Below, piece by piece: positions 28,702 through 61,780 of a stretch of DNA of 64,000 nt; within the stretch, counting starts at the first letter, position 1, and every line of letters begins with the position of its first letter. Both the position numbers and the translations under genes were made by a program. The notes beneath the pieces were generated by a model. It was not told the DNA's origin, did no database searches, and saw nothing but the letters and a program-made list of their open reading frames with translations. Source of the DNA: Falciphora oryzae. Its lineage: Eukaryota; Ascomycota; Sordariomycetes; Magnaporthales; Magnaporthaceae. The stretch spans positions 709,655 through 773,654 of the forward strand of contig JNVV01000012.1 in the NCBI GenBank assembly GCA_000733355.1. Reading direction: 5' to 3'.

Positions 28702-29250
28702 CTATTGAGACGCCTTCACACCCTTCATCCCGCCATAGTCTTCCTTGACCTCCTCCCCGACGGCAAAGGCCTTGGCCGGCTGCAGCACGTACAGCATCCT
28801 CGCCCACTCCGCCTTGCTCGTGTTCCGCCACGCGTGCATCGTCGCCCTCTGCACGCAAATATCCCCCCTCCGCATCGGCCTCGTCTCCCCCGAGTCCAGC
28901 ACCAGCTCCACCTCGCCCTCGAGCACGACGCCGTAGTCGATGCTCACGGTCCGGTGCATGGGCGACGTGAAGTCGGGTGGGATGTCGACGTACCGCAGCA
29001 CGGTGCCGTTGGAGACGGTCAGCCCGGGAGGGCGGGAGAGGTAGCCCTGGTAGACGGAGACGTCGGCGCCGTCCTTGAGCTCGATCGGGAAGCCCTCGGT
29101 CACGTAACACTGGGCGAAGAAGGCGTCGCCCTTACCGAGCTCGTAGAAGGGTGCTGCGGCGGGGATGGACGTGTCGATGACCGCTTTGCCTTGGGCGTTA
29201 TGCGTGGTTATGAAGCGGTTGGGGATGTGGAGCTTGCCGTTGAGGGCCAT
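28702..29250 (-). CDS. Cupin-domain protein
   Basis: A single exon of 182 residues. The cupin core occupies about residues 85-165: motif 1 around SPMHRTVSIDYGVVLEGEVEL and motif 2 around RRGDICVQRATMHAWRN, giving at least two metal-ligand histidines. Small fungal cupins of this type lie in many catabolic and secondary-metabolite clusters and may act as dioxygenases, isomerases or decarboxylases. It is divergent from the fumarylacetoacetase-family gene (469 bp between starts), which makes it the left end of the proposed catabolic cluster. The metal-ligand set is not a textbook germin pattern (H-R rather than H-x-H), so activity is uncertain. Confidence 0.85.
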   Translation of the reverse strand: MALNGKLHIPNRFITTHNAQGKAVIDTSIPAAAPFYELGKGDAFFAQCYVTEGFPIELKDGADVSVYQGYLSRPPGLTVSNGTVLRYVDIPPDFTSPMHRTVSIDYGVVLEGEVELVLDSGETRPMRRGDICVQRATMHAWRNTSKAEWARMLYVLQPAKAFAVGEEVKEDYGGMKGVKASQ

Positions 29251-29718
29251 ATTGTTTTGCAGCTTTGCCGTTGCCTTTCTTAGGCAAGGGCGATGTTGTC
29301 TATGCTGTAATAATGGCTAAATAGAGGTTGGAAGTTGGAGCCTTGTTTGTCTTGGTGAGGATCGGGCCGGAGAGGCCGTGATGCGAGACGACGACCCGGA
29401 AACGTGCACTTTGGGGGTTTCAAGTAACAGCAACAACAGTTGCGGGACAATAGATCTTCGCCTGGTCGCGGTTGCCGAGGTCAACCAGCAGCTTGACCCC
29501 ACGATGGTCGGGATGTGGGGGAAGGGGAGGGAGGCCGGTTTCTCACAACCATCCCAACTCTCACCACCCACTCATGTCGTATATGATGCGAGTCCACTGC
29601 GGATGTTCGGCCCGAGTCTGATCTGAGCCTATGGACAAGACTGACGTGTTGAAGAGAAGCTGCGTGGGCCCACGCCGTGATTGCCAAACTCGCCGCTGCG
29701 CACACGTTAGTCTCGATC

Positions 29719-31134
29719 ATGTCCGGATACCGTCACCACTTCTCGACCCGCAACATACCATTCGGCATAGCGTCGTCGTCCAAGCACGCAGAGCCTCAAG
29801 CGGCAACACGAGTGGGGGATTCCGTGGTTTTTCTCCACGACTGCCATGTCGCCGGACTGTTCAATGGCATCGAAGACCTGCCCGAGGAAGTCTTCAAAAA
29901 GAAAACGTTGAACGGCTTTGCAGCGCTCCCGAAAACCATCCATAGCAACGTCCGCAAGGCTCTCCAGGATGCTGTTCGGGAGGATGAAGGCCGTTTTGAT
30001 GCTTTGCCCGTGGGAAGCATTGAGCAAGTAACCCATGTGACGATGCACATGCCAATGAGTGTTGGGGATTTCGTCGGTACGATTTCCGTCGTTCTCCCTC
30101 CCATACTTCTCCTTAGTTGACGATCCAGATGGCCAGACTTCTCCTGCTCCCTCGAACACGTCAAAAACGCCGGGCGCATCGTCATCAACGACGAACGGCC
30201 CCCACCGGCCTTTTTCAACTTCCCCATCGGCTACCAGGGCCGCGCCGGCTCCATCGTCGTGTCGGGGACGGACATTGAGCGGCCGATGGGACAGTACCGC
30301 GACAAGACAGCGCAGCCCACGAACGACGGCGAGCTGCCCGTCGTGCACGGGCCGTCGCGCAGTGTCGACTACGAGATGGAGTTTGCGGCCGTCATAGGCA
30401 AGCCACTGCCGATGAATGCGAGGTTGAAGGCCGTGGATGTGGATGAGCACATTTTTGGGTTCGCCCTCTTGAATGACTGGAGCGGTTAGAGGGCGCCCTC
30501 CCCCGAACTCTCAGAGAATGCCCCTACGAGAAAGACATATGCACTGACCACATGGCTACTGAACTCTCCAGCCCGGGACATCCAAAGCTTCGAAATGGTG
30601 CCCCTCGGTCCTCTCAACGGCAAGAACCTGGGCACCACGCTCTCGCCCTGGATCGTTACCCCCGACGCGCTGGAAGCCTTCAAGACCGAGGGCCAAGCCC
30701 CGATCGTGCCCATCCCGACGTATCTCCAAGATCCGGAACGCAAGACGTATGCCGTCAAGATGCAGGTTGAGATCCTGACGGGCGGGGACGACCAGACCGC
30801 GACTGCGACGGTCGTGGGCAGGTCTTGCATCTCGAGCCTCTACTGGTCAGTCCGGCAGATGATCGCGCACGTCGCGAGCGCGGGGACCGCCCTGCGCACG
30901 GGAGACGTCATGGCGACGGGGACGGTGACCGGGCAGGGACGCGACGCGCTCGGGTGTCTCCTCGAGGTGACGGATGGGGGCAGGGCCCCGCTGACGCTGC
31001 AGGACGGGAGCGAGAGGCGGTTTCTCCAGGATGGAGACGTGGTCCGCATGACGGCCGTGGCGGGGGATGAAGGGTCCGGGGTCGGGTTTGGGGAGTGTGT
31101 GGGGAGAGTTGTTCCCAGCCGGCCGTTTGATTAG
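29719..31134 (+). CDS. Fumarylacetoacetase-family C-C hydrolase
   Basis: Three exons: 29719-30076, 30137-30484 and 30572-31134, across introns of 60 nt (GTACGA..GGCCAG) and 87 nt (GTTAGA..CTCCAG), giving 422 residues, the usual length of FAH. Family motifs run in order: FSTRNIPFGIAS, DSVVFLHD, MPMSVGDFVDFSCSLEHV (Asp120), PPPAFFNFPIGYQGRAGSIV, VDYEMEFAAVIG (Glu199 and Glu201), FALLNDWSARDIQ (Asp233), VPLGPLNGKNLGTTLSPWIV. These metal-binding acids fall at the same residue numbers as in mouse FAH except the first. FAH hydrolyses fumarylacetoacetate to fumarate and acetoacetate; relatives split other beta-diketones. With a neighbouring extradiol dioxygenase rather than homogentisate dioxygenase, the substrate may be another ring-cleavage product. 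Confidence 0.93.
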
Positions 31135-31494: not shown

Positions 31495-33353
31495 ATGCCC
31501 GGCCAAATTCGTGACCTCCACACGGTCGACGAAACGTCGTACCCTTACATATTCGAACAGAATGTCACCGTCCGGATCACGTCCGGCGGCGGCGGCCTCG
31601 TCCGGTGCAACGTCTACAGGCCCAAATCAGGCGACAAGGCGCCGGTTCTGGTGACATACGGTCCATACGGGAAAGATCTCCACTACAAGGAGTAAGTACA
31701 AGTTGAAAGAGAAGAGTCCCACAGCCGCCCCTGGCTCGCCCGCTACGTCACCGCTTCTGACACGAAGAGCTCACCATTCGCAGCTTCACGCCCAAGTTCT
31801 CCGAGGTTAATGACGAGCACAAATCGGCCCATTCGGCCTGGGAGACGCCCGACCCGGGATTCTGGACCAGCAAAGGCTACGCCGTGGTACGCGCCGACGA
31901 GCGTGGCACCGGCCAGTCCCCCGGCATCCTCGATACCATGTCCTGCAGCACCTCGGACGTTTTCGTAGACGTGATCGAGTGGGCCGCCGAGCAACCCTGG
32001 TCGACGGGCAAGGTTGGCTTGTTAGGGATAAGTTATTACGCCGGCAGCCAGTGGCGCGTCGCGGCGCGCGAACCCAAGGGCCTTTGCGCCATGGTCCCTT
32101 GGGAAGGCATGTCCGATTACTACCGTGATCGGTGCCGGCACGGCGGTATCCTATCAAACGGGTTTATTAAATTTTGGTGGAACCGGCAAGTTGTCACCAA
32201 CCAGTACGGGCGTCCCGGGCGTGTGGCTTCCATCGAAGGTGACTTGAGCGAAGAGGAGCTCGCGGCCAACCGCAACGACCAAGTTCTCGATAACCAGGCG
32301 CATCGGTTCCGGGACGAAAAGTACTATGCTTCCAAGGAGTACAACATGGGCGATATTAAAGTTCCGTTGCTCTCCGTCGGCAATTGGGGCGGTATTTTGC
32401 TGCACCTTCGCGGTAATATTGAAGGGTATACGCACGCCGGCTCCCAGTTCAAGTACCTTCGCATGATTACTGGGCGGCACGATCTCCCCTTTTACTACAA
32501 AGAAGAGGTCGACGTGCAGCTCAGCTTCCTCGACGCTTTCCTCAAAGGCGAGGACCGCGTCGGCTGGTCCCAAGAGGGCAAGGTGGCGCCCGTCAGCCTA
32601 GTGCTGCGCAAAGGTAACGTTGGCTTTAACAACGCTGAGAAGGAAAAGGCCTACGAGCGCCGCGAGGAGCAGTCGTGGCCTCTCGCCCGCACGCGGTACA
32701 CCAAGTTCCACCTCACGCCGGACGACCAAGGTCTTTCCACTACCCCCAGCGCCATCGGTGTGCAAAGGAGAAAACTAAGCTACCGCGCCTTGGGCACCAT
32801 GGACGGCCCGCAGCTTCTCCAGTTCACCACAGCCCCGTTCGCGCAAGATACGGAAATTACGGGCCACGTCGTCGCACGCCTCAGCGTGTCTGTAACAGCC
32901 GACCCCGGCGGCCCTACGCCTAGCGATATCGACCTTTTCCTCACGCTGCGCTATCTCGGCCCCGACGGTGAAGAAGTTTTTTACACCGGTACGGCGGGCG
33001 ACCCCGTGCCACTGACCAAAGGCTGGCTTCGCGCTTCGCTGCGCAAAGTTAACCGGGAACACCCCAAGCACCGCGAGTGGCTGCCCCATCGCGACTACAC
33101 AAGCAGGGACGTACTGCCGGTCATTCCGGGCGAAGTGTATGCGGTCGACGTGGAGGTGTGGCCGACCAACGTCGTCGCGGAAAAAGGGGGTAGGATCGTG
33201 CTGGAGGTCGCTTCAGGGGATACGCAGGGGTCGGGCATCTTCTTGCACAACGATGTGGTGGACAGGGCCGAGGACGTTTTCCGGGGTTGGAACAATGTTC
33301 ATTTCGGAGGCGGCGCGGAGAACTACGTCGTGCTTCCCATCATTCCCAACTAG
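31495..33353 (+). CDS. CocE/NonD-family serine hydrolase (first copy)
   Basis: Two exons, 31495-31691 and 31784-33353, across a 92-nt intron (GTAAGT..CGCAG), giving 588 residues. The N-terminal alpha/beta-hydrolase domain (PF02129 type) contains DKAPVLVTYGPYGKD, KGYAVVRADERGTGQSPG and the nucleophile in KVGLLGISYYAGSQW (G-x-S-Y). The C-terminal jelly-roll domain typical of X-Pro dipeptidyl-peptidase and cocaine-esterase relatives follows from about residue 370. Family members cut esters or amides, including acyl-amino-acid and lactam substrates. It lies 360 bp downstream of the FAH-family gene on the same strand. A second, diverged relative lies at 45541-47316. Confidence 0.9.
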
Positions 33354-33503: not shown

Positions 33504-34461
33504 TCAAGTGGCAGCCGTGAGCGCCCTGGGCCACTCGCCAAACGCGTACTGACTGTCGCACATGTTGGTCAGCTCCCACGTTTCGGCTACGAGCTTGCCA
33601 AACACGCCCTCGTCCTCCTCGTCCCCAACAGCCCCGGCGACAAACATGGCCGCCATGAAATGGTCGTCCGTGGCGTGCGCGTCGCGGTACAGTGGGTGCT
33701 TCATGAGCCTCGTCATGGCCCGCCGCAGCCTCGGGCCCGAGTTATTCTTGATGACGTCCTCGACGGCCTGCCTGAACTCGAGCGCCCAGGCCTCGGGTGG
33801 CGTCTCCTGAGCAAAGTTGTCGGCGTAGCGCACCATAGGGGCCCATTGGTTCCTGTATAGATTGTGGACGGCGCCGCCGGAGCCGATGACGACGTAGTTC
33901 TCTTTGCGCAACGGGCGCACAGCGGCGCCGACCTTCACATGGTAGTGCGGGTCGAAACGGGCGTTCATAGATATAATGGTAGTGGGCGGGCAGCCGTCGG
34001 GGAACATGCGGATGAGCACGAGGTAGACGTCGTGAATCCAGTCGAAGGAGTCGTTGCCGGCGACGTCGAAGCCGGCGTCGCGGAGCAGGGAGATGCACCT
34101 GGCCGAGGTCTCGAGGTCCGGGTTGAGCTTGTAGTCGACGTACTTGCGCGGGTGGACGTAGGCGACGGGGCCCTTTCCCGGGTTGGGGTTCGTGGCCACC
34201 TGGATGGCGTCGCCGCCGACGTCCCAGTGCGCGCCCATGAAGATGACGCCCCTGACGTTGTTGGCGCGCGCGCGGTCGCCGGCGCTTTTCCAGTAGGCGG
34301 AGGACTCGGAGTCCTCGCCAAGCATCATGGTCGATCCATGGGAGAAGAAGTAGACCGGGGCGAGGGCTGAGGGAGCTGCTTGCGGGGTAGGGGGTACGTT
34401 GTCAGTACATTCTGGTGGCGTGGCTTCTTTAGAGGAGCTAGACGGGCGAGGACTCACTCAT
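33504..34461 (-). CDS. LigB/DODA-type extradiol ring-cleavage dioxygenase
   Basis: A tiny first exon (ATGA, 34461-34458) is spliced through a GTGAGT donor to the main exon beginning at 34378 or 34375 (tandem AAG/CAG acceptors, both in frame), ending at 33504, about 292 residues. This start is preferred because the continuous frame upstream lacks a canonical ATG. Class III extradiol motifs: VYFFSHGSTMML, GVIFMGAHWD, DPHYHVKVGAA and VVIGSGGAVHNLY, which supply the His residues for non-haem Fe(II) and acid/base catalysis. The family opens catechol rings next to the diol, as in LigB or DOPA 4,5-dioxygenase. It lies between the CocE hydrolase and the dual zinc-finger regulator. This class is much less common in fungi than intradiol enzymes. 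Confidence 0.88.
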
Positions 34462-35094: not shown

Positions 35095-38000
35095 ATGAGC
35101 ACGACCACACCCACATCACAGTCGGCCCCTCGGGACACGGGTATCCCCAGCGACCCGAAGCCTGCCTCCTTTTTCCAGTGTGGCTTGTGCAAGCAGCGAT
35201 ACAAGCGAGCGGACCACCTGGCGCGCCACGTCCGATCTCGTAAGGACCCCGACTCCCGCCCGGAGGCTGGGGTAGATCACTGCAGGTGACAGCCCTGTGC
35301 AACCGACATGCGGCTTCACTGACAGGGATTTCGATCGTATTTTGAGACTCCCAATACAAGCCTCACAAGTGCGACATCTGTGGCAAGGCTTTCTCGAGGA
35401 CGTGGGTGATCCCGTCCCTTCTCTTACCAGTACCAGTGCACTACATGTCGCTAAAATTTGCTGTTTTCCTCTGCTTTGCCCTGCCCTGCTCGACAGCGAC
35501 CTTTTGCTTAGGCACGTGGCCAGCCACGCCAATGGAAAGACTAAGAACTCGGCCGGCGGCGACATCCGCGAGGTGCAGAGCCGCGTCTCGCGCGCGTGTC
35601 GGACCTGCGCCACCAACCACTTGCGATGCACCGAATACAAACCATGCAGGCGGTGCGTCGAAAAGGGGCTCAGCTGTAATTGGGAGTCGGACAGCCAGGT
35701 CATGATGGATGTCGACCAAGGCAACGCAGACGCCGCCTCTCCGCCGCCAGACACCAGGACCACGGGGCCATCCGGCATGGAGGTCGAGCTGCCCGGCGGC
35801 CACCCTTCGCGTGTGTTGGCGTCACCGTTACAGGACGAACAACACCAACAGGAAGCAGAGGCACTTCCACCACAGGTTCATGCCGTTAGCTACACCGCGT
35901 TTTTCGCCGACTTCCAACCGCAACAACAGCAGCCGCTGCACAAGCCCCAGAGCCAAGCCCAGCCACCGCCTCTGATGGTCGTGCAGGCTCCCCAGGACTA
36001 TGACGCGAGTCCCGACCCCGCCCAAAGCCCAGGCCTCGGCCCCGGCACCGTCGGCGCAGACACACATGACTGCCCCATCGGCACCGTGACCTCGCGATTC
36101 CCTGACTGGAACTTCCTCCCCGGTTGGCAGACCCCGACGAGAGGCGGTGCGACCGATCTCGGAGGCTGGGCCCTCCCCGACTTTGAGTTGGACGAGGCAG
36201 ACATGCGATTCCTGGACGTGTACAATCACGCAGTGCCTTTTGAGCTCGGAGGGGGCCCGCATTCCGAGGTGACCTTTGGGGCTCATGACGACAACCACGA
36301 CCGGGACCGGGACCGGGACAGGAACAAGGGCAGACCGGCGACAGGAGTCTCGCCCGAGCCCCGCCACCCGGCCTCCTCCGGGCCAGAGGCCTTCCGCAAA
36401 CACCACTGGCGTTTCCAGCCCAACAACATGGACCGCGCCGGCGCCGAGGAACACAACCTGTCGCTGCCGACGGACGCGCAGGATCACGCCTCGCCGGAAT
36501 CCCGCGTCTCGGTCAGCGCGAGGGTCACGGCGGCCCAGCTGAACATGGCGACCCGTGACAAGATTCTCGCCACAGTCATCAAGAACTGCCGCTCGGAGAA
36601 CCTGAGCCGCGCCGTCGAGTTCTTCCCGAGCGTAGAGCTCCTGGACAAGCTGCTGCAGTACTACCTGGCCTCGCCGCTCGCGCGCGCCGACACCTTCATA
36701 CACGCCCCGACGTTCAACCCAAACAACAAGCGACAGGAACTCTTGCTGGCCATGGCAGCCGCTGGGGCCGTCCTGACGTCGGACGCGACACTAGCCAAGC
36801 TTGGATATGCCATGCAGGAGATTGTGCGCCCCTCCGTTGCCGCCCAGTGGGAGGGCGACAATTCCCTGACGAGGGACCTCGAGCTGCTACAGGCCTTCCT
36901 GATCCATCTCGAGATCGGCATCTGGAGCGGCCACAGCCGCAAGATCGAAATCACCGAGAGTTTCCTACAGGCACCCCTGACGATGCTCCGACGAGCGGGC
37001 AGGTTCAAGAGCTCGGGCTATCCCGACGTGGCGTCTTCTCCGTTATCATCAGCCACCGGCCACGACCCGACCCTGGGCGGGCCCGAACTCCTTGAGACAT
37101 GGCAATCTTGGGTGCACGAGGAGTCGTACAAGCGGACCGCCTTCCGGCTTCTCACGCACGACGCAAACTCCTCCATCTGCCTCATGGTCAATCCGCTGCT
37201 CTCGTACGCCGAGATCTCTCTCCCCCTGCCGTGTGCACCTGGTCTCTGGACAGCCACGAGCCCGGGTCAGTGGAAGGCGGCGCTCCCCCTGGCGGAATCC
37301 CACCTGAAAGCCGGCGGCACCCAACCGCCGCCCCCCACCATCGCCGACTTTGCCGACAACCCCGGCGCCTACATCGCCGCCTCGCAAGCGAGCCATCAGT
37401 CGCCCTCGTCCTTTGATACAGCCCTGACCAACCAGGCCTTCTTATCGTACGCCTGGAGTTTATGCTGGGAGTGTATCCAGCTGGCGTCCCTCTGCCGCAG
37501 CAGCAGCAGCGCCACGACGGCCAACAAGATGCCCCGCCGATGGAATGCCCTTATCCTCTCCTCCCGCAAAGACGAAATCCTCAAACTCCTCCATCACTTC
37601 CGCATTGTGGCCGACCCACCCCACCACAACAACCAAGACGCCCCATCATCATCATCATCATCATCATCCGCATCGGCAGCAGCAGCACCGTCTCTCCCAC
37701 ACACACACACCCACGATGACCAAGTGGTGCGCATGAAGCTCGAACACATCCTCCTGCACATGCACGCGCCGCTCGAGGAAATCCAAACGTTTGCGGGCAT
37801 GGAGGGGCCCGAGCAGGCCGCGGGCGCGCACGGCGTCATCGTCGAGTGGGCGGCTTCGCAGGCCGCGCGCACGGCCGTGTGGCACGCGAGCCAGATCGTG
37901 CGGGCCGCGAGGCGGATCGCCGCGGGCGCGGTGCAGGGCCCGCTAGCTTTTAGTCTGTACCATGCCAGCTTGGTGCTGTGGACATACGCGCTCGTCTGGT

Positions 38001-38398
38001 CGGAAGAGCATGGGGATGCACAGCAGCGACAGCAGCAGCAGCAGCAGCACCGGAGACCTAGCAACGCGGGCGCGACGACGGTGTTCCTTGATGAGGACGG
38101 GGAGAGCATAGCGTTGCAGCGGTTTACGCAGTTGGGGACCGGGAGACCTTGTTTCCGGAGCGTGACTTATCCTGCTGGAGCTGGAGCCGGAGCTGGGTGT
38201 GTGCGGTCAGATGGTCGGGCTCGGGGCTCAGTGCCGGCCGTCGAGGAAGTGTTCCTGGAGGAGCCCGACAAGATCATGGGGGCGCTGGTCGACGTCTTGT
38301 GCTGGAACCATCGGGAATTGCCGACACCACACCTGACTGATCGGTTGATCCAACTGATGGGGGCGCTCCAGCGGTCGCCTGGGGCCAGAGGGGGATAG
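35095..38398 (+). CDS. Transcription factor with two C2H2 fingers plus a Zn2Cys6 cluster
   Basis: Three exons: 35095-35239, 35347-35401 and 35497-38398, giving 1033 residues. The splices rebuild both C2H2 fingers: C29-x2-C32-x12-H45-x3-H49 and C57-x2-C60-x12-H73-x3-H77; His49 is made by codons split across intron 1. A binuclear cluster follows: C101-x2-C104-x6-C111-x5-C117-x2-C120-x6-C127. A Gln/Pro-rich linker leads to a fungal-specific transcription-factor domain (about 440-750), then Ser- and Gln-repeat tracts. Such C2H2/Zn2Cys6 hybrids are nuclear regulators. An A18 tract lies about 400 bp upstream of the chosen ATG. In-frame upstream ATGs exist, but they add only low-complexity sequence. 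It is probably one of two cluster regulators. Confidence 0.9.
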
Positions 38399-40136: not shown

Positions 40137-40156
40137 CTCGGTTCGGTTCGGTTCGG
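40137..40156 (-). promoter_or_regulatory. (CCGAA)3CCGAG array upstream of PhyH copy 1
   Basis: On the minus strand, the strand of the gene, this reads CCGAA three times then CCGAG. It starts 285 bp before the ATG at 39871. The identical 20-mer occurs upstream of PhyH copy 2 (47730-47749) in the same orientation, 287 bp before that ATG. CCG/CGG half-sites are what Zn2Cys6 factors bind. Function is inferred. Confidence 0.6.
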
Positions 40157-40317: not shown

Positions 40318-43071
40318 TCACATATCGTACATGAGTAGGTCTGTATCCATCATACTCCAGAGCTCCTCAAACTCCATCCCAGAAAACACCTGGAACCCCG
40401 GCCCGCCCGTCATTCCCAGCTCCTCCACTCTCCGCGGTACCGGTGTCGCCTGCCCGCCGCCGCCACCACCCTGATCTACGGAGGGCAGCGCGGGAAGCCC
40501 AGACGGTCCCTGCACGGGCGCGGCCACGGCCATCCCCCCGCCTGCCGCAGCGTCCCACACGTCCCTTCCCCGCCCATGCCTCTCTCCTCCTGCGCCCTCT
40601 CCTGCGCCCCTACCCTGCGGCAAGCCCCGCAACCTCACATCCTGTCTGAACACGGCCGTCACCCTCTCCCTGAGGCGCGGCAGGATGGCCACAAACGCCG
40701 CCTGGAACCCCCAGTACCGGTACCGCCCTTCTACGTACTCGGTGGCCGACGTCAGGAGCCCTACATCCGACCGTGCCAGCGTGCTGGTGGGCGTGCGTAG
40801 GATGCCCAGCGCGAGGACCACACTGGCGAGGAACGTTTGCGGGACGCCCAGCAGGGTGGATTGCACGCCGGCGTCGGCGAGCTGTAGCGTTTGCAGGACG
40901 AGGTTCCGCGCCGCTTGGATGCACATGGACGCGCCGCCGAGGAGGCGGCCGATGCCGGGGGCGTCGGCGCTGCGCTTCTTCACTTCGTTGGCGAAGCTGT
41001 TTTGGGGGAAGATGATGGCCGAGCGCAGGACGGCGATTTGGGCCTGTTTCGAAGACTCGTCGGTCAGTCAGCCGACCCACTGTCGATAAGGAAAGGAAGG
41101 GCACGCTTGCATGATAATATTGCTGGGACAGGAACACAGCCAGAATGTGGTTATCGTCTGTGGTATCGGTGAAGAAAGTGTTCTGCGGCCGCAGCTGCTC
41201 CGGCAGCGCCGCCTCCCACTCCGTCAAGCACCGTGCTTGCCGCGCCGTCTCGGCCAGCATCTCGCCCGACCCGGAGAAGCGGTGCGAGTAGAGCCAATCG
41301 GATATTTGCCCCATTATGCCCGCCAGGGACACCCAGGCTGTGAACCACATGAACGGGGTGCTCCCGTTGTATGAACGTTCGTCTTCCTCCTCGACGGCCC
41401 CGGTGTTGCTCCCCACGCAGACGCCGCAATTGATAGACAAGTGGTCGTATTCAGGATCTATGCTGGAGGGCCTCCCGCATTCCAGCTGCATGAGCCTTTC
41501 GAGGGAGAAGCAGGACCACCAGGTGCGTTCTCGCAGACTGTCTGCTTGCTGCTGTTGCTGCAGGACGGCCCGAAACGGAGACGAACATGATGATGATGCA
41601 GGGGCAGCTCCACCACCACCTCCTTCTCCTGCGGCCTGTCTCTCGGCCGACTTGTGCAGGCCGAGCGACAGGGCCATCCGAACAGCCTGCCCGACAATGT
41701 GCCACGCTTGGCCATCCTTGCAATGGCCCCTCAGAGCCAGAGCAAGAAGAAGCAGCGCCTGCACGCTAGAATGGTAGGGAGCGGCGGTCAGGTTGCCGTG
41801 CAGGCTATAGCAAGCCGTTAGGTACACCACCTTCGTCTCCAGGGGGCAGTCCATATCGTCGTCACCCTGCCTTGCACGCACCTCGTTCAGGCCGATGCAG
41901 ACAATGGCGTAGAGAATGGCCAGGCCCGGCACGTGGGCCAGCTGCAATTCGTCCTGGAGCCTACGGGACCGAGACTGCAGGTCGAGAAAGAGGTCTACAT
42001 CGGCGTCCACCGTCCCCCGGTTGACGACGGGGAAGAGAGGCCAGATGCGTCTGAAAAAGGCATCGACGCACTGCCCGAGAACCTGGCGATCCGGCAGGTT
42101 GGGGATGCTCGCAAAAAGAGGCATTTGGAACTCCTCGCTGTGCGACATGCCGTGCCCGAACAGCGGGGTTGTGGGATCAAAGCCGTAGCCCGCCAGCCAG
42201 AGGTCGGCAAAGCTGAAGAGGCACTGCAAGCTGCTGCCGCCGAGGACCTGACAAACCCAAAAGAAGGCTGGTTAGGATGTGGCCCCAAGAGAGAAGCAAT
42301 TCGACAAGGGCCGTGCGCACTCACCTTCAGCCTGTTTGGTGAGCCGTCAATGTTCACAACCACGTCGGGGGTCACGACAATCGGGACCGACTGTTCCGCC
42401 ACGGCGTCGTCCGCCGGTGACCCGGAATTCTGCGCCTGTGCGGCCGTGCTCTGTTGGTACGCCCGTGAGAGCCAAGAGACGTGGTCCGTACCGGGGCGCT
42501 GGCTCTTGCTCTGGGACTGCCTCCCGAGCTCTCTCTCGGCGACTGAGCGGACCCTCGCCGGGGACGTGGACCATTGCGTCCTTGTGGAATCCCGCTCGGC
42601 GCGGCGGCCGTCTACCCCGGCCCCTGAAGCGCTCTGGTGGCCAGAGGAGCGTGGCGGCGGGGGCGGCTCGTCAGGCCGAGGTGGTTGCTCAGCGGCGGCG
42701 GCAGCAACGGTGATCGACAGCCGCCGCGCGGCCGTGGCCCTCTTCCTCGCGGCTGCGGGCGCCCCTGGCCTTCGGAGGTTCGAGGTCTCACACGACTCGC
42801 CCCGCAAAGTGCAGTTTTGGCACTTGGGCTGGCGGGCGTCACAACGGACCTTGCGCCTCCGGCACGAGTTGCATGCCAGCGAGAGCCGGGCCGACTTGCT
42901 ACCAGGTGCTGGTACCGGTGCTTGTCTCGGTGCGTGGCCCGCTTGGGCCGGCACCGGCGGCAAGGCCGTCGACGATGACATGGAGGCGAGGCAGCGGGCC
43001 ACCTCGGCGACAGGCTCGGGCTCGATCCAAGCCGGAGGGCCGTCCCGAGCCGAGAAGACGGCGCGGCTCAT
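40318..43071 (-). CDS. Zn2Cys6 fungal-specific transcription factor
   Basis: Three exons: 43071-42325, 42247 to about 41105, and 41043-40318, giving about 870 residues. Intron 1 is GTGAGT..TGTCAG. Intron 2 has either a GTGCCC donor after 41105 or a GC-type donor (GCAAGC) after 41111; both keep frame and differ by two residues. The binuclear cluster is at C67-x2-C70-x6-C77-x6-C84-x2-C87-x6-C94, followed by a basic Pro/Ala-rich linker. The fungal-specific regulatory domain (PF04082 type) spans about residues 290-560, with FFRRIWPLFPVVNRGT, RMALSLGLHKSA and RERTWWSCFSLERLMQLECGRPSSI as signature blocks. A CCGAA-N3-TTCGG palindrome 118 bp upstream of the ATG suggests autoregulation. It is probably the pathway-specific activator or repressor. 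Confidence 0.92.
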
Positions 43072-43629: not shown

Positions 43630-44993
43630 TTACCCCGTAGCCGTCCTAGCCACCCACTCTTTAGCGCCGTTGTAATTACAGTTGTACTCCATGAACTGCC
43701 ACGGGTTCAGCTTGACCTCGTCCGGGCCCGAGCTCTCCGTCGTCGCCGGCTTGGCCTGGTCCCTGCTGTACTTCTGGATGAGACTCGCCCTCGCGTGCCT
43801 GGCCTCGAACACGCGCCGCAGCGCCGCTTGCACCTCCTCCTTGGCGGGCTTGCCGGCGGGCAGGTCCGCGACGTACGCCCGGAGCGCCTCTGCGTCCTCG
43901 AAGCTCTGCGACGCCCCCTGCCCCTGCGTCGGGAGCATCGCGTGCGCGGCGTCGCCGATGAGGGCGGCCCGGCCGCGCACCCAGGTCGGCAGGGCGTCGA
44001 TGTCGCGTAGCTGCCAGATGGCGCGGCTCGGGGCGCGCCTGAAGATCTCGAGGAGCCACTCCGGGAAGCCGGCGTAGACCCGCAACAGGCCGTCCAGGTT
44101 TCCCTCGGTCACCCACGGGTCGTCGTCGTCCCCCCTACCTCCGTTGAGGTCCCTTTCGCACGCGCCATCCGGGACCAGCGCCACGATGCCGAAGACGGCA
44201 CCGTCGCGGCCGGGGCCCATAATGACGCGCCGGTCGTGGCCCACGATCATGGTCGTCACGGACGCGGCCGGGTTCAGGGCCTCCCTGGGGATGTCGATGC
44301 CCGCCAGCCGCTCCGCCGGCACCAGCATCCTGTAGGCCGAGACGCCCGTCGGGACGGCGCCATGTCGCGCGTCGTCTCCGACGATGGCCGACCGCAGCAC
44401 CGAGTGGATACCATCCGCCACGACGACAATGTCCGCCGCGAGCGTCTCGCCGTCTGCCAGCGTCACTGTGCCCCGCTCGGCATCGCACGATCGCACCGTG
44501 CGCCCCGCCCTGATCACAGCCGGCCGGCCGGGCAGGTCGGGACTCGTTGCGGCGGCCCTGAGGGCCGCGTGGAGGTCCTGGCGGTGGTACAGCATGCGGT
44601 CGGCGCCGAAGCGGGACGTGTCGAGTGGCATTTCCCTCACCACGTTGCCCGATTGGTCCAGCATGCGGAAGGCCTTGTCGGCCATGGGGCCGTAGGGCGC
44701 GAGGAACTGATCGAGTCCCCATGCAGTCGCCATCTTGGACGCGTTGGGCTGGAGAGAGATGAGCGCGCCGGTTTCCTTGAGCATTTGCGATCGTTCGAGG
44801 ACGGTGATGGTCCTGTCCGGCGCACGCAGGGCGATGGCCTTGTTACAAGCAAGAAATTGTTGGCAAGGAGAAAAAATAAGAGTCTTGTCTTTGCTTGGAC
44901 GCGCATCATCAAGGGACTTACAGCGGCAAGGCCGGCGATGCCGCCGCCTGCGATTATGATCTCCAAACTTTCGGAGCCCGCGTTACTTCGCAT
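43630..44993 (-). CDS. FAD-dependent aromatic monooxygenase (salicylate-hydroxylase type)
   Basis: Two exons, 44993-44922 and 44838-43630, across an 83-nt intron (GTAAGT..ACAAG) that splits the Rossmann motif; joining gives IIIAGGGIAGLAAAIALRAP and 426 residues. Family features: the GxGxxG dinucleotide fold at residues 13-30, a VVADGIHSVLR segment (DG motif), and RAALIGDAAHAMLPTQGQGASQSFEDAEAL (GD motif binding FAD ribose, followed by the active-site loop). Enzymes of this group use NAD(P)H and O2 to hydroxylate phenolic acids, sometimes with decarboxylation, giving catechols. That product type would feed the extradiol dioxygenase at 33504. A CCGAG/CCGAA array lies about 250 bp upstream. Confidence 0.93.
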
Positions 44994-45234: not shown

Positions 45235-45249
45235 CCGAGCCGAGCCGAA
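45235..45249 (+). promoter_or_regulatory. CCGAG-CCGAG-CCGAA array upstream of the monooxygenase
   Basis: Three tandem pentamers of the CCGA(A/G) type, starting 242 bp before the monooxygenase ATG (minus-strand gene) and in the opposite orientation relative to that gene compared with the PhyH sites. It may be a variant of the same operator. Confidence 0.45.
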
Positions 45250-45540: not shown

Positions 45541-47316
45541 TCAGAGCGAAACAAAAGGCAGAATCACTCGGCTGGGATATTGCCCTCCGAAATGCACCAC
45601 ATGCGTCCCCTTGTTCTTCTCGTGGTCCGGCCTGGGCTTCGAAAAGGCTGCCGTCTCGGTAAACCCGGGGAACTGGCCCAGGACGTCGAGCTGGACCGAC
45701 TCGCCCTCCTCGTAGTCGACGCCCATGGCCCAGATGCCGATCTCCAGCTTGACCACCTCGCCCCGTGGCACCTTTTGCACCTCGTCGTGGGGGTGGAAGG
45801 GGAACTGCGGGTGCAGGGACTTGGACGCGTCGATCTTGCGCTGCGACGCCCGCAGCACGCCGATGGACCCGTTGTGCAGCGTCAAGCTCTGCCTCTCCTT
45901 GTCGGCCATGTCGTCGATGGACTTGACGGGCGCGCGGGCAAAGGGGAACTGCAGCTGGCTGAGCTCCTTGCCGTCGCGGTCGAGCTTGCGCAGCTGCACG
46001 AAGACGACGAGGTCGTCGAGGTCGTCGCAGCTCATGTACAGCTCCGCCTTGGGGATGCCGATGAGGCGCGTCGCCCGCGGGAAGGTGTGGCGGAACTTGG
46101 AGACCGACCAGCGGTCCTCCGAGTTGTGCGACACGGTGCCCGCCGCCGCCGGGGAAACCTCGGCCGACAGGGCTCCGCCGGGCGCGAGGTAGAAGGATCT
46201 GTAGTCCGTGTCCGGGACAGGGAAGTCGGGCAACACAATGTCGTGGGTGACGTCGCGGTCGCCAAAGGGGAGCGTGGCCCAGCGCACTTTGGGTGTCTTC
46301 TCCCAGTCGTTGTCGATGCCCTTGAGGTACCGGTCGAAGAAGAGCTTGAGCTCGTCGTAGCTCTCCTTGAGCGCGTACAGCTCGAACCACTCCTGGTAGC
46401 CGCTCCACTTGATCCACTTCTTGTCCGTGTTGACCTGCATCCAGCCGCGGACGGCGCCCATGGTGTGGATCTGGCTGAAGTCGGAGCCCGTGATGAAGCA
46501 CGGCACGTTGATCCTAGTCATGTCTACGCACTTGTCGTTCCAGTAGACGTTGGCGAGCGGCGAGCGGCGGTACATCTCGGCAAAGTCCTCGACACCCTGG
46601 TGGCCCTTGATGACCAGCTTGGTGATGAGGTCGTAGTTGCTCATGCTGAACCACCCGCCGCGGCAGAACTGCTCGCGGAAGATGTCGCCCGAGCCCTCCC
46701 ACGGCGCGATGGCCTTGAGCGACGGCGGGTTCTGCGCCGCTGCGTGCCACTGCATGATTGCCAGGTACGAGTTGCCCGCCATGCCGACGTTGCCGTTGGA
46801 CCACGGCAGCCTAGCCAGCGCCTCAATGACATCGTGCGCGTCCTCAGCCTCCTGCAGGCCCATGCACGGCGTGTCGCCGTCGCTGTGGCCGGCGCCGCGC
46901 GCGTCGACGCTCGCGATGGCATAGCCGCGCGCAACCCACCACGCCGGATCGAGGCCCTCGAACTTCTCCAAGCCGCTGACGTCCTCCTTCTTCAGACAGC
47001 AGGCCCACGTGCAGATGTTGAAGATCATGTCCAAGGCCGAGTACTTCTTGCCGTACGGCGACCAGGAGACGATGACAGGCACGTTTCCCCCGTCCGTCGC
47101 GGGCCGGTAAATGTCGGCGTACAGGCGGCACCCGTCGCGGACGATGATCTCGACGTCGTGGTCGACGCGGACGTCCGAGTCGAGCGTCCGGGCGCCAAAG
47201 GGCGCGGAGCCCTTGGCCAGCACTTGGGACTTGCCCGGCGTTGGCTCGACATAGCCATTGTTGCCGACTTCGGGCTTGTTCAGGGGCTTGAAGGCGACCT
47301 GGTAGGGGATCGGCAT
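45541..47316 (-). CDS. CocE/NonD-family serine hydrolase (second copy)
   Basis: A single exon of 591 residues. The N-terminal hydrolase domain has DGCRLYADIYRP, NVPVIVSWSPYGKKY, ARGYAIASVDARGAGHSDG and the nucleophile in NVGMAGNSYLAIMQW (G-x-S-Y). A helical cap follows, then the C-terminal beta-sandwich domain from about residue 370 to the end (LPFVSL). It differs from copy 1 in the elbow (GNSY against GISY) and in lacking introns, so it is not a recent duplicate. It shares a 700-bp divergent promoter with PhyH copy 2. The long opposite-strand ORF over it is a shadow of its GC-rich codons. Confidence 0.92.
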   Translation of the reverse strand: MPIPYQVAFKPLNKPEVGNNGYVEPTPGKSQVLAKGSAPFGARTLDSDVRVDHDVEIIVRDGCRLYADIYRPATDGGNVPVIVSWSPYGKKYSALDMIFNICTWACCLKKEDVSGLEKFEGLDPAWWVARGYAIASVDARGAGHSDGDTPCMGLQEAEDAHDVIEALARLPWSNGNVGMAGNSYLAIMQWHAAAQNPPSLKAIAPWEGSGDIFREQFCRGGWFSMSNYDLITKLVIKGHQGVEDFAEMYRRSPLANVYWNDKCVDMTRINVPCFITGSDFSQIHTMGAVRGWMQVNTDKKWIKWSGYQEWFELYALKESYDELKLFFDRYLKGIDNDWEKTPKVRWATLPFGDRDVTHDIVLPDFPVPDTDYRSFYLAPGGALSAEVSPAAAGTVSHNSEDRWSVSKFRHTFPRATRLIGIPKAELYMSCDDLDDLVVFVQLRKLDRDGKELSQLQFPFARAPVKSIDDMADKERQSLTLHNGSIGVLRASQRKIDASKSLHPQFPFHPHDEVQKVPRGEVVKLEIGIWAMGVDYEEGESVQLDVLGQFPGFTETAAFSKPRPDHEKNKGTHVVHFGGQYPSRVILPFVSL

Positions 47317-48016
47317 GTTAAGTTAGGGGCGAGAAGGGACGGCGTGTGTCCGTATGCAGAGGACTACTCCAGGTACCTAAACAAGACGAAAAAATGTCGA
47401 CGGCGGCAAGATGTCGGAGGGGGTGTCTTTGGTCTTTGGACATGACCTCAGTCAGGTATCCGGCAGAGACCATGGGCTGCTCAAGAAAGAAGCCGAAAGG
47501 AAACAACCCATTGCGACCCCGTCCCCCGGCCCTCGGCTCCGCCATGCACGGCGGGATAAAGATAGAAAATGGCCTTTGCCGTTTTCAAAATTCGATTACA
47601 CCCGGACCCCGCACGAGTGCATCCCCGCAGCGAACCCTTCTTAGGCGCAGGGCCAGGGTGCCCAATAGCACATCAACCCTGCAGGAGGGGCTCAGGAACC
47701 AGTCTACCCCGCAAACACTAAAAGCCCGCCCGAACCGAACCGAACCGAGTCCGGGCCCTCGACAGCGCACATTGCACGATGCCGAGCCGGGGTGTCGCGG
47801 TTCTTAGGAGAAGTCCCCTATGGCAGCGCGAGGACGACGGCAGACTAGGTGCTTATTAAATCGCCATCATTTCCAAGCCGAGTCGGCAAGTGAACAAGCA
47901 GTAAATCGCAAGTCGAACTTTTTTTTTCTCCCAAGATACACATTGGCCAAACCATCTTTTTCCCATCTTCAGCACTCTCCTTTGGACTCAACAATAGCCT
48001 CCTTTGTTGCCGCAGC
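47317..48016. other. Divergent promoter between CocE copy 2 and PhyH copy 2
   Basis: 700 bp with no gene. It holds the CCGAA array at 47730-47749, which could serve both genes, and T/C-rich tracts near the PhyH start. Confidence 0.6.
47730..47749 (+). promoter_or_regulatory. (CCGAA)3CCGAG array upstream of PhyH copy 2
   Basis: The same 20-mer as at 40137-40156, in the same orientation relative to its PhyH gene. It starts 287 bp before the ATG at 48017 and about 414 bp before the divergent CocE start. Confidence 0.6.
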
Positions 48017-49152
48017 ATGGCCACCGCGACCGTTGCCCGGCCAGCCGAGGCGTCGGAGCGCACCTTTGGCGCCCGGTTCGAGACCAAGGACCTGGTCGAG
48101 TTCGACGAGTCGGCCGTCTACGGCGACTGGCGCGACGAGTTCCACAAGAACGGCTGCGTGCTCATCAAGGGCCTCATCTCGCCGGAGCGCGCCAAGTACT
48201 ACGCCGACAAGCAGATCGAGTGGCTCAGGAAGTTTGAGCTCGGCTTCGACGAGAAGGGCCCCGAGACGTGGACGGCCGAGCACCTGCCCGTCAGCTTCAA
48301 GGGCGGCATGTACTTTGCCTACGCATCCACGCACGAGAAGATGTCGTGGGAGGCGCGGACCGAGCCCAAGGTCGTCGAGGTCTTTGAGAAGCTATGGGGC
48401 ACAAAGGAGCTGCTGTGCTCGTTTGACGGCATGAACATTTCCATGCCCAACCGCAAGGACCTGCAGTGGAGCCCGTGGCCTCACTGCGACCAGAACCCGG
48501 AGCGAAAGGGGTGAGCGGGACCCCCGAGCACACGCGCCTTAACTAGTTTAAAGAAAAGGAAAAGAAAAGAAAGCTGACGGGCCCCTCTCCCCTTTGCAGC
48601 ATGCAAGCCGTCCAGGGCCTCCTCAACTACGCCCCCAACGGCCCCAAGGACGGCGGCCTCATGCTTATGCGCGGCTCCTCCAAGCTCTTCAATGAGTTCT
48701 TCGCGCACAAGCGCGAGTCGGCCGACCACGAGGATGCGCCGCCGCCGGAGCTCAAGTACATGGATCTCTTCCTCTTCTGCGAGAAGGACGTGCAGTGGTT
48801 CAAGGACCGCGGCTGCGAGCTGATCAAGGTCAACATGGACCCCGGCGACTTTGTGCTCTGGGACTCGCGCACCATGCACTACGCCTGCCTGCCCGAGGGT
48901 GAGCAGATCCGCCACGTGCAGTACATCTGCATGACCCCCAGGAAGTTCGCCAACGACGAGGCCCTCGCGGCCAAGAGGCATTGCTTCGAGAACTGGATGG
49001 GCACCACGCACTGGCCGCACTGCAACATACGCCCGGCAGAGGAAAGGCCCATGAGGGACGGCAAGCTGTGCCCCAAGTACAGGACCGAGCCGTTCGAGAA
49101 GCCCGAGATCACCGACCAGGTACTGCGTCTGGCCGGTGTCAAGCATTATTAG
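48017..49152 (+). CDS. PhyH-family Fe(II)/2-oxoglutarate dioxygenase (second copy)
   Basis: Two exons, 48017-48510 and 48600-49152, across an 89-nt intron (GTGAGC..TTGCAG), giving 348 residues. The facial triad is visible as PWPHCDQNP (H-x-D) and DFVLWDSRTMHYACLPEGEQIRHV (distal His and Arg). The N-terminal YGDWRDEFHKNGCVLIKGLISPERAKYYADK and C-terminal THWP-H-N.. LRLAGV blocks match copy 1 (38600-39871), so the two are paralogues; copy 1 has an extra intron near its N-terminus. Such enzymes hydroxylate, epoxidise or desaturate small molecules using 2-oxoglutarate and O2. Confidence 0.93.
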
Positions 49153-49499
49153 GGGCAGGGACAGAGGAATGGGGTTTGTTTGGATAGGGTTCGCCACGAT
49201 AATAATTGCCGGTTCATAGCAATGAATGAAATGAGGAGAAAGAAACAAGTGGGGAAAAACCATGACCAATGCTATCTTTCGGTTCCTGTCACAGATTGAG
49301 AATGCTTCTCGAGCGCACACGGGCTGGTTCGGTCGGGTCTATGCTCCAGGACAATTCCCCATGGAGTCGGAATCAAGTGATATGGATCCCTTGCGCCCAG
49401 TAGCGAAGCCAACATTTTGCCCGAGCCGACGCAACCCTGGAGGGCCGCATCAGGTCTGCCAGTGCAGCAAGCCTCCACGCACCGGCCCCACCTTACCCC

Positions 49500-49583
49500 G
49501 TGGGGAAAACGCGGGAGGATTGGTGGGAACCCAACCCGAGTGTGGGGAAAACGCGGGAGGATTGGTGGGCACCCAACCCGAGT
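49500..49583. repeat. 42-bp direct tandem repeat (two copies) in the MFS promoter
   Basis: Units 49500-49541 and 49542-49583 differ at a single base. A partial third unit begins at 49584. Each unit contains a CCCGAG element near its end. The array is about 250-330 bp upstream of the MFS start codon, so it may double regulatory sites. Confidence 0.85.
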
Positions 49584-49828
49584 GTGGGGAAGGAGGCAGG
49601 GGTAAAAAAAAAGGGAGGATGACGGAGACGGCAGCAACCTGACCTGGGGCCAGAAGCCCATGTTCACTCGTGGGCGCTCGTGTGTTTTACTCGCCATAAA
49701 ACGCGCTTCGCAGCCAGTGCCGCCGGCTGAGCCCTGGCTGCTAACATTCAATTATCGTCCGGATGTTCCTGCCCACTGGTTAGCCAGCCAGTTTCCATCT
49801 TCCCCTTTGTACTGGACCGAGTTTCGAG

Positions 49829-51893
49829 ATGGCGGCCGTCAAGAAACAAGATTCTTTCTGCGCCCACGTCGAGGATGCCGCTGTCGACGACGGAAAGCTC
49901 CAGGTCGACCGCTCCAAGGTCAATGTGAGCGGCACCATCCAGCTTACCGCGGGCAAAATCGTCTACATCCCAGCGCCCACTGCGGATCCCAGGGGTAAGC
50001 CCTCGCTGGGCGAGCGCGCGACTTCTCCACGGTTTGATTAAGCCATCCGAGCGATTTGATTCGGTTCTTATCTTAGCTGACTTTTTCCCCCAGATCCTCT
50101 AAACATGGCCATTTGGCAGAAAATCCTCGTCCTGATCTGCCTGTCTTTCTGTAAGTTCGCCATCTTCCGAACCCTCCGAACTTATAAATTCGATAAAACA
50201 CGACCTAATGATTTTCTTTCCTTTGCGTCTTCCCAGTTTCCGTCGTCGGTCTCGGCATGGTTAGCGGTTTCGGCGGCCTTCTCGGCTTCTACATCCCCAA
50301 CTACGCAAAAGTCGGCAAAGGGTATGCCGAAATCAGCTACATGCTGAGTCTCCCGAACCTGACAATGTACGTTTGCATACGTAGTTTGCAGTGAGCAAGC
50401 GAAATCCCTGCTTCCCCTCCCCCTTTTACGACAGAACGTCGCAGTGTTGACACGACTACCTTGCCCAGGGGCTTCGGCAATCTGTTGGGCATGCCTATCG
50501 CCATCGCCGTCGGCCGGCGCAGCGTGCTCCTCTGCGCGACCGCGCTCATGTGCGCCAGTATCGGCCTTTGCGCGGGCGCGGGCACCTCGGCGGAAAACTA
50601 CGACTGGCACCTCGGGGCGCGCATGCTGCTCGGCGTGGCGGCGGGCCAGAGCGAAGCGCTGGTCCCCATGATCACGCAGGAGATCTTCTTCCTGCACGAG
50701 CGCGCGCGGTTCCTCACGATCCAGCAGACGATCCAAACCATCGCCGTGGCCATCTTTGTGCTCTTCGCCTCCCCGATCGCCGACGCCATCGGGCCCGCCT
50801 GGTGGTACGGCCTCGGCTGCATCCTGTGCGGGGTCTGCTTCCTCGTCTGCTTCTTCTTCGTCCCCGAGACCAAGTACTACCGCCCCCAGTCTGCCTACCA
50901 GGAGGCCGCGTCTGGCGGCGACAGCGACGGCGCCGGGTACCGGCTTCACACCGAAAGGCCCCCGCTCGACTTTGAGAACTACGAGGCGCGCACCTGGCGC
51001 TCCGACATGCGTCTCTGGATCGGCAAGCCGGAGTGGGGCAATGCTTGGACCGTCTTCAAGGATGCCTGGACCATGGTGCTGTTCCCGAATGTCTTTTGGG
51101 CTCTGGTCCTCAACGGTGTCACTCTGGGCGGCAACATTGCCATCAGCATGACGGTATGTGAAAATCCCTCCTGCTTTTGACTTGGGTACGAAAAACAATA
51201 TGCTTACTTGGCACCTGGCAACAACAGTACGGACGTGTGGTTGAGTCCCCGCCCTACAACTGGCCTACCTCTTCGACTAGCTACTCCAACGCCGGCCAAA
51301 TCATCACCTCTCTTGTTGGTATGCGTGCTGCTGAACATCGTCGCTCCCGATCCTTTCCTTTTCGAATTTGCTAACGAGAAACCCCATCCCCAGCTCTCCC
51401 GAGCTACGGCTACCTATCCGACTATCTAATCAAGTGGTTCGCCCGCAGACGCGGCGGCATCCACGAACCCGAGACCCGCCTCCTGCCCCTTTTCGTCCCC
51501 ATCTGCATCGGCGTCTTCACCATCGTCTTCTACGGCCAGGGCGCCGCGCACCCGGAGCGCTACCACTGGTTCACCTACGCGTGGGCGCTCGCGGCCTACT
51601 TCTTCACCTTCATCGGCGCCAACATTGTGGCCATCACCTACCTGCTCGACGCCTACCCCCAGCGCGCTAGCTCGCTGCTCGTCATCGTCTGCGCCCACCG
51701 CGGCTTCCTGTCCTTCGGCGTCAGCTACCGCGTGTGGGACATGATCGACGCCATGGGGTACGACGGCGCGTTTGGCATGTTTGGAGGCCTCACCGCCCTC
51801 ATGGGCATCCTGGGAATTGTCCTGTTCTTCACCGGCAAGTCTATCCGGCGGCACACCAGCCACTGGGTCACGGTCAGGGACAAGAACGCGTGA
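49829..51893 (+). CDS. Major facilitator superfamily transporter
   Basis: Six exons: 49829-49994, 50094-50150, 50237-50366, 50469-51153, 51228-51318 and 51394-51893. All introns are GT..AG (75-102 nt) and all joins keep frame, giving 542 residues with about 12 membrane helices. Helix 1 is rebuilt by splicing (ILVLICLSFFSVVGLGMVSG). Between helices 2 and 3 the loop GNLLGMPIAIAVGRRSVLL carries the conserved MFS G-x-x-x-D/GRR element. A large cytosolic loop (about 270-330) separates the two halves, with VPETKYYRP closing the first. It is likely a plasma-membrane proton-coupled carrier taking up the cluster substrate or exporting a product. It is the right end of the proposed cluster. Confidence 0.92.
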
Positions 51894-61778: not shown

Positions 61779-61780
61779 TA

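Follow-up and report, generated by a model that had tools for sequence, protein, structure and literature searches.

A candidate fungal cluster for extradiol ring cleavage in Falciphora oryzae, with LigB-type dioxygenase, CocE-type hydrolase and divergent fumarylacetoacetase-type genes

A stretch of 64,000 nucleotides from Falciphora oryzae (contig JNVV01000012.1, positions 709,655 to 773,654, referred to here as the window) contains eleven contiguous genes, and the question it raises is whether these form a fungal system for the extradiol (meta) cleavage of an aromatic ring. We hold with moderate confidence that the genes make up a regulated catabolic cluster built from two adjoining modules, one for trimming and hydroxylation and the other for extradiol cleavage followed by FAH hydrolysis.

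Gene content and limits of the cluster

The block extends from 28702 to 51893 of the window, and the intergenic gaps in our own gene models are only 150–700 bp, so that no unrelated gene fits between the eleven. The initial annotation was correct in both respects, and Pfam backs each family it named. Ten of the eleven spliced models have a single terminal stop, the exception being TF2, whose exon joins are provisional. The left half begins with a short cupin (182 aa; 28702..29250, minus strand; Pfam Cupin_2 2.1e-8; PDB 3es1 3.5e-29), which has no NCBIfam match and whose PDB matches are unnamed cupins. Next, on the plus strand, are a full-length fumarylacetoacetase-type hydrolase, FAH (422 aa, 3 exons; 29719..31134; FAA_hydrolase 9e-41, FAA_hydrolase_N 3e-23; PDB 5ti1 7e-78), and a CocE/NonD-type alpha/beta hydrolase, CocE1 (588 aa, 2 exons; 31495..33353; Peptidase_S15/PepX_C 6e-33/2e-42; PDB 3ib3 3.4e-55), in which Ser149 and His298 of the presumed catalytic triad are conserved across the CocE1 family. 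LigB, a DODA-type class III extradiol dioxygenase by domain match (291 aa; 33504..34461, minus strand; Pfam LigB 2.4e-16; PDB 8in2 2.4e-17), is modelled with a proposed 4-nt exon 1 (34458-34461) and exon 2 at 33504-34375, and is followed by the regulator TF1 (1033 aa; 35095..38398, plus strand), with two C2H2 fingers (zf-C2H2 1e-11), a Zn2Cys6 motif (Zn_clus 8e-5) and a fungal transcription factor domain (Fungal_trans).

The right half contains two PhyH-type 2-oxoglutarate dioxygenases that are about 41% identical, PhyH1 (344 aa, 3 exons; 38600..39871, minus strand, stop codon at 38600-38602; Pfam PhyH 6.7e-10) and PhyH2 (348 aa; 48017..49152, plus strand; PhyH 1.5e-7). By eye PhyH1 appears to carry the HxD...H motif. 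No third copy of this PhyH type was found in the genome, and it is seen only in the window. Between the pair, all on the minus strand, are the regulator TF2 (40318..43071; Zn_clus 1.4e-9, Fungal_trans 2.3e-24; several alternative exon models), the flavin monooxygenase FMO (426 aa; 43630..44993; FAD_binding_3 3e-11) and a second CocE/NonD-type hydrolase, CocE2 (591 aa; 45541..47316; Peptidase_S15/PepX_C 7e-41/1e-35; PDB 3ib3 1e-77). FMO had been called an FAD phenol hydroxylase; it is an FAD monooxygenase, but a salicylate-hydroxylase-like group A enzyme fits better (PDB 5evy 9.7e-37), and its match to salicylate 1-monooxygenase TIGR03219 (3e-43, 147.9 bits) is far under the cut-off of 446.35. 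An MFS transporter closes the block (550 aa, 6 exons proposed; 49829..51893, plus strand; MFS_1 7e-19).

The eleven genes are probably not the full extent of the system, because an ALDH-like gene of several exons on the left was overlooked (25910..27295, minus strand, from the extent of matches in an approximate model; Pfam Aldedh 3.3e-10 for the joined pieces). The system probably begins near 25910 and includes this gene, as its only other copy found in the genome sits some 4 kb away from a LigB paralogue. Inspection by eye suggests that the encoded protein has no catalytic cysteine. Between it and the cupin, a small predicted protein (28074..28548, plus strand; an ORF with one proposed intron) has no Pfam match. 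All whole-genome copy searches were run exon by exon, such that copy counts are lower bounds and "only" refers to copies found.

LigB and its recurring partners

The predicted fold and conserved histidines place LigB in the class III (LigB/DODA) extradiol dioxygenases. The AlphaFold2 model (pLDDT 80.7) has 8in2 as its best PDB match (TMq 0.74), with 2pw6 at 0.66, and H51, H116, H147, H172 and H240 are kept in 120 of 120 homologues (the best 120 of 819 proteins at E <= 0.001), as is H14 in all 100 having a residue there. The score against the 4,5-DOPA extradiol dioxygenase model NF007914 is below its cut-off (71.7 versus 233 bits). All organisms named among the best 120 are fungi, and several homologues carry the name 'aromatic ring-opening dioxygenase family'. 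We met no role for this fungal family in the literature. When 17 ring-cleavage candidates, LigB types among them, were deleted in A. niger, the fungus grew on gallic acid as before, and the flavus intermediates described in the same source suggest that gallate undergoes extradiol cleavage (PMC10512348); gentisate opening is also counted as extradiol in PMC8283699.

Comparison with other fungi supports LigB, FAH and CocE1 as a unit recurring in Verticillium dahliae, where VDGE_09807, the orthologue of LigB, has the tag number adjoining that of VDGE_09808, a fused FAH-CocE1 model; their contigs are of identical size (386,554) and were taken as the same contig. Among the matches listed, 7 of 8-9 assemblies that allow the comparison, Verticillium included, have LigB and CocE1 on contigs of equal length from one organism, a proxy by which the two are apparently co-located. 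They are on separate contigs in F. decemcellulare NM208, and FVEG_06737, the orthologue of CocE1 in F. verticillioides, is far from the ring-opening dioxygenase FVEG_06463 (PMC10512309), a possible orthologue of this LigB. No bacterial counterpart was confirmed in a narrow test of two contig scans with two short peptide patterns each. A second locus in the same genome, on contig C18, has paralogues of the ALDH-like gene (about 40%; C18:388575-389426, some 4 kb from the C18 LigB), LigB (74%) and CocE1 (70%). Because the three orthologues are consecutive in Verticillium and C18 repeats the ALDH-like, LigB and CocE1 genes, the grouping goes beyond chance. The recurring unit supplies the fungal LigB family with a concrete partner set and directs the search for products toward diketo acids that FAH could cleave.

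The two loci have different affinities in trees built from chosen subsets (39 of 120 listed homologues for LigB, 39 of 120 for CocE1, and 13 outside pairs when concatenated). LigB and CocE1 of the window fall together with Sarocladium and Chaetomiaceae (concatenated support 91/90), and the C18 copies with Pyricularia (100/100), the C18 LigB being 91% identical to that of Gaeumannomyces; the placing of the C18 copies points to a probable Magnaporthales genome. Among the concatenated pairs, the Pyricularia and Clonostachys genes are from different species, and in at least two further pairs, those of S. eucalyptigena and E. dermatitidis, tags indicate different strains. A single clade of window, C18 and Pyricularia copies is not rejected by AU tests (p 0.202, 0.149 and 0.109; 0.159 with a wider set). 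Ancient duplication is thus a possible source of both copies, and we make no claim of horizontal transfer of the window cluster.

The proposed pathway and its alternatives

Taken together, the cluster looks built for aromatic uptake, trimming, ring opening and product splitting. The two-module reading starts from the gene content and domains, the LigB histidines, the linkage of LigB, CocE1 and FAH in another fungus and the divergence of FAH, and from these we infer the reactions, their order, the substrate and co-regulation. The right module (PhyH1, TF2, FMO, CocE2, PhyH2 and MFS) would take up the compound, hydrolyse an ester or amide in it, trim it in 2-oxoglutarate-dependent steps and, by flavin hydroxylation, yield a polyhydroxylated ring. 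In the left module (ALDH-like, cupin, FAH, CocE1, LigB and TF1), LigB would open this ring in extradiol fashion and a specialised FAH would then split the diketo acid by hydrolysis of a C-C bond. The recurring unit speaks for the pathway first proposed for the locus, but not for its wording in terms of simple catechols: plain catechol cleavage gives a semialdehyde, which on chemical grounds is no FAH substrate, and the ring should therefore bear a further hydroxyl, like the one in the bacterial route for 7-hydroxycoumarin. We tentatively suggest a more specific version, fungal meta-cleavage of a hydroxylated catechol, in which a triol made by FMO would be opened by the DODA-type LigB and the diketo acid split by a re-tuned full-length FAH of the tyrosine-degradation type, with the CocE and PhyH pairs feeding the route and two regulators running it.

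FAH just reaches the cut-off of the fumarylacetoacetase model TIGR01266 (375.8 versus 375.3 bits), so that ordinary FAH activity is possible, and it might be a spare tyrosine/homogentisate-type enzyme surrounded by bystander genes. This we consider very improbable, as homogentisate dioxygenase has no match in the window, the genome matches being on C73, C22 and C19, and the gene is linked to LigB and CocE1 in Verticillium. The window FAH is 60% identical to the Verticillium protein over 254 residues, whereas its identity to the other two full-length FAH genes of the genome (C22 and C73) is 37-44%, depending on the segment; of these, the C73 copy is 1.8 kb from a homogentisate dioxygenase match. 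The pocket also differs from both of these copies. At three positions, corresponding to the substrate-pocket residues Tyr128, Arg142 and Tyr244 of the mouse enzyme, Tyr/Phe, Arg and Tyr are found in the C22 and C73 copies, Ser, Ile and Met in the window copy, and Ser, Val and Met in the Verticillium copy; among the copies compared, the changes are confined to the last two.

The halves could also be unrelated neighbours that serve separate pathways, one being a conserved LigB-CocE1-FAH(-ALDH-like) unit, the other PhyH/FMO/CocE2/MFS together with a regulator of its own. C18 repeats left-half genes only, the PhyH type was found only in the window, and in 11 of the 13 fungi that could be compared the relatives of FMO and CocE1 do not share a contig, so that the FMO-LigB link is not general. 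A promoter motif is similarly restricted: CGG-NN-CGG-NN-CGG, which was spotted by eye before counting, has five overlapping matches at three places in the window (0 of 100 shuffles reach five), all in right-half cluster promoters and none in those of the left module. These candidate cis elements, which as a motif shared by cluster promoters also count in favour of the two-module reading, are CGG-TT-CGG-TT-CGG-TT-CGG at 40139..40156 (plus strand), 268 bp from the PhyH1 start, and at 47730..47747 (minus strand) in the divergent CocE2/PhyH2 promoter, and CGG-CT-CGG-CT-CGG at 45235..45247 (minus strand), 242 bp from the FMO start. Nonetheless, each half has a CocE-type gene, the locus tags of FMO and CocE1 in Sporothrix eucalyptigena differ by five, and in Plectosphaerella plurivora the two share one contig. 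We regard unrelated modules as unlikely; given the other 11 fungi, these two linkages weakly support the earlier proposal that the monooxygenase feeds LigB. Biosynthetic tailoring, in which the catechol opened by LigB would cyclise again into a pyran, pyridine or betalain-like ring and PhyH, FMO and CocE decorate a scaffold made elsewhere or imported, seems to us a little less unlikely. The C18 LigB and CocE1 paralogues flank a polyketide synthase (KS, AT, DH, KR, ACP) and an AMP-binding enzyme, cupin relatives at C6:472526 and 479666 are 2-9 kb from a ketosynthase match, and plant DODA/LigB and Aspergillus sydowii DODA make betalain-type or pyrone products (PMC12653660). Against this, no backbone synthase was noted in the block at first, and in exon-wise, lower-bound searches for condensation and ketosynthase domains contig C12, which holds the window, has no condensation-domain match and its sole ketosynthase match is 374 kb to the left of the window. 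An AMP-binding search placed none of the 14 scored candidates (of 60) on C12. The retained catalytic residues of FAH likewise argue for C-C bond hydrolysis.

Relation to described systems and a further promoter signal

The earlier remark that a fungal cluster with this gene set is not known to have been described holds for the exact combination, but related systems are published. In the literature searched we found no printed description of the set or of the LigB-CocE1-FAH core. Fungal aromatic ring-opening dioxygenase (ARD) degradation clusters are a published class, after Gluck-Thaler and Slot, and like the window they have a ring-opening dioxygenase among neighbouring genes; they are called by proximity and a core gene (PMC10735191). 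LigB is a homologue of the kind that defines them (Pfam LigB 2.4e-16). The fungal gentisate cluster shares an FAD monooxygenase, a ring-cleaving dioxygenase, an FAH-family hydrolase, an MFS transporter and a Zn2Cys6 regulator, but there gentisate 1,2-dioxygenase opens the ring, whereas the window has a DODA-type LigB together with CocE and PhyH pairs (PMC8283699, PMC7842363); Pfam scans of the eleven genes gave no gentisate 1,2-dioxygenase. With the homogentisate/tyrosine cluster the window has a full-length FAH in common, but it has no homogentisate dioxygenase and the FAH pocket is altered, a pair of the usual kind being on C73. In Pseudomonas mandelii, hcdABC acts on 7-hydroxycoumarin with a similar logic, from FAD hydroxylase to trihydroxy ring, extradiol opening and a proposed hydrolase; this system belongs to a bacterium, and its extradiol enzyme, HcdB, is of type I and not a LigB (PMC6222606). 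The benzoxazolinone-induced cluster FVEG_03387-03405 of Fusarium verticillioides, compared by annotation only, shares FAH, an FAD-binding protein, a cupin, ALDH, a transporter and regulators, lists no LigB or CocE, and has several genes, ALDH among them, that are not induced (PMC10512309).

A second promoter sequence, CCCCGCAC, which we take to be CreA-like, is present in five of nine cluster promoters, and, of 100 simple Markov shuffles, 1 produced an equally widespread k-mer. As it was examined after looking, it is a weak candidate for a cluster promoter signal; it is also found at 16554, 22200 and 50826.

Gene content and flanks of the block

The initial annotation had named eleven contiguous genes, and gene models and Pfam matches bear these out at 28702-51893. 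From left to right they encode a cupin (minus strand), the fumarylacetoacetase-type hydrolase FAH (plus), the CocE/NonD-type hydrolase CocE1 (plus), the DODA-type extradiol dioxygenase LigB (minus), the regulator TF1 (plus), the 2-oxoglutarate dioxygenase PhyH1 (minus), the Zn2Cys6 regulator TF2 (minus), the group A FAD monooxygenase FMO (minus), CocE2 (minus), PhyH2 (plus) and MFS (plus). Neighbouring gene models within the block are separated by 150-700 bp, and there is therefore no room inside it for an extra gene. The next gene left of the cupin is a small one of unknown family (28074-28548), and beyond it is an ALDH-like gene (about 25910-27295); genes of other kinds are located further left, encoding a gamma-glutamyltranspeptidase (20518) and an M28 peptidase (11430). 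To the right of the cluster the GC content falls from about 0.60 to 0.41-0.49, and this AT-rich stretch (window 52000-62000) contains retrotransposon open frames (reverse transcriptase, RNase H). A short DNA-transposon-like HTH frame is also present there.

Proposed ring opening and a divergent FAH

In the proposed route, the FAH-type enzyme would cleave a diketo acid produced by extradiol ring opening. On chemical grounds, we would expect such cleavage to yield a diketo acid only where a further hydroxyl is suitably placed, that is, with a triol rather than a simple catechol. The report on hcdABC provides a precedent for a further-hydroxyl route, and there the hydrolase's own products were not identified (PMC6222606).

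The window FAH is of the full two-domain fumarylacetoacetase type, and the other full-length FAHs in the genome are on contigs C73 and C22, with only a weak partial match on C31. A homogentisate dioxygenase match is positioned 1.8 kb from the C73 FAH, and the two (C73:140116-143707) likely constitute a tyrosine-degradation cluster; another such match is 45 kb from the C22 FAH. At the alignment positions that we take to be mouse Tyr128, Arg142 and Tyr244, with the numbering and roles assumed, the window FAH has Ser, Ile and Met and the Verticillium FAH has Ser, Val and Met, and the C22 and C73 FAHs have Tyr/Phe, Arg and Tyr. Asp126, His133, Glu199 and Glu201, presumably metal- or catalysis-linked, are retained in FAH. 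Judged by its sequence, the window FAH is specialised relative to the C73 and C22 copies, and it barely meets the NCBI fumarylacetoacetase cut-off, which speaks against a new activity.

Sequence comparison with the PDB places LigB nearest to DOPA dioxygenases (8in2, 29ky) and E. coli YgiD (2pw6), and it falls below the NCBI family cut-off for DOPA dioxygenase. The predicted structure (pLDDT 80.7, pTM 0.85) also has 8in2 as its best match (TMq 0.74), with 2-aminophenol 1,6-dioxygenases and homoprotocatechuate 2,3-dioxygenase coming after it. Two further LigB matches are present in the genome, on C85 and C18. FMO is salicylate-hydroxylase-like, with a score far under the equivalog cut-off. PhyH1 and PhyH2 share about 41% identity and are the only two copies of their type found in the genome; no PDB relative of PhyH1 was found by sequence. 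The genome search turned up three PepX_C genes: CocE1, CocE2 and one on C18.

Linkage in other fungi

Co-location in other fungi was assessed from the organism, contig size and locus tag of protein matches, comparing the best 120 of 819 rows for LigB, 120 of 4443 for CocE1 and 120 of 2197 for FMO. This evidence is a proxy, because the contig size given is that of the longest contig within a 90% cluster and may be another member's, and because FMO relatives at 53-67% are not necessarily orthologues. The V. dahliae LigB carries the tag VDGE_09807, and the adjoining tag VDGE_09808 is an 845-residue FAH and CocE1 model in which, by Pfam labels and sequence, FAH comes first and CocE1 after, as in the window. 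Among the matches listed, seven assemblies show the same organism and contig size for LigB and CocE1: F. subglutinans (146 kb), X. digitata (189 kb), P. appendiculata (244 kb), V. dahliae (387 kb), S. schenckii (1.8 Mb, tags 27 numbers apart) and, as cases of little weight, Mariannaea (2.6 Mb) and S. strictum (5.2 Mb). F. decemcellulare NM208 is a counter-example with the two on separate contigs, as they are in M. nivale, though possibly from different strains. CocE1 and FMO are on one contig in S. eucalyptigena (tags 000872 and 000877) and in P. plurivora, and on separate contigs in 11 of the 13 comparable fungi among the matches listed, as counted by eye (nine Fusarium, S. strictum NLU13 and M. 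trichocladiopsis). Two narrow scans confirmed no bacterial relatives.

ARD clusters are a published class, described as enriched in plant-symbiotic fungi (PMC10735191). The FAMeDB main text has no word starting extradiol, LigB or meta-cleavage (PMC13094099), and no paper describing this gene set was found in the literature searched, most subscription papers being outside its reach. Other literature was also drawn on (PMC10512309, PMC10512348, PMC8283699, PMC7842363, PMC12653660, PMC12704424).

A candidate promoter motif and a second locus on C18

Across the 64 kb window, the motif CGGNYCGGNYCGG gives five matches, counting overlaps, at three sites: 268 bp before PhyH1, 242 bp before FMO, and between CocE2 and PhyH2 (414 and 270 bp). 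The search gave no match in the left module. Shuffles gave a mean of 0.38 and reached five in 0/100, figures that are optimistic because the motif was spotted before counting. Outside the window there is one match, in L016, across the 132 kb of loci L012-L025; L008 and L009 also hold matches but are the window's own DNA (25 loci compared). The candidate element would fit a Zn2Cys6 regulator, for example TF2.

Contig C18 carries paralogues of CocE1 (70%), LigB (74%) and the ALDH-like gene (about 40%) spanning 354.8-389.9 kb, interspersed with a polyketide synthase, an AMP-binding enzyme, a GMC oxidoreductase and a sugar-type transporter, and the genome search gave no FAH match at this locus. 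The region (C18:348000-397999, L012-L016) possibly represents a case in which this type of ring-opening enzyme serves biosynthesis. In trees, the C18 copies cluster with Magnaporthales and the window copies elsewhere, although the difference is not significant. The genome search found just two ALDH-like copies, both close to a LigB, and we therefore count the window's ALDH-like gene into the system, of which it is probably part. Its product and the C18 paralogue appear to be without what we take to be the catalytic cysteine of aldehyde dehydrogenases.

Elsewhere in the genome, two relatives of the window cupin are located 2-9 kb from a polyketide-synthase ketosynthase match (C6:472526-479977). 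Two large condensation-domain arrays of similar spacing (C5:1353275-1369525 and C78:102171-127796), in open frames 5478 and 8631 aa long, are apparently related NRPS genes.
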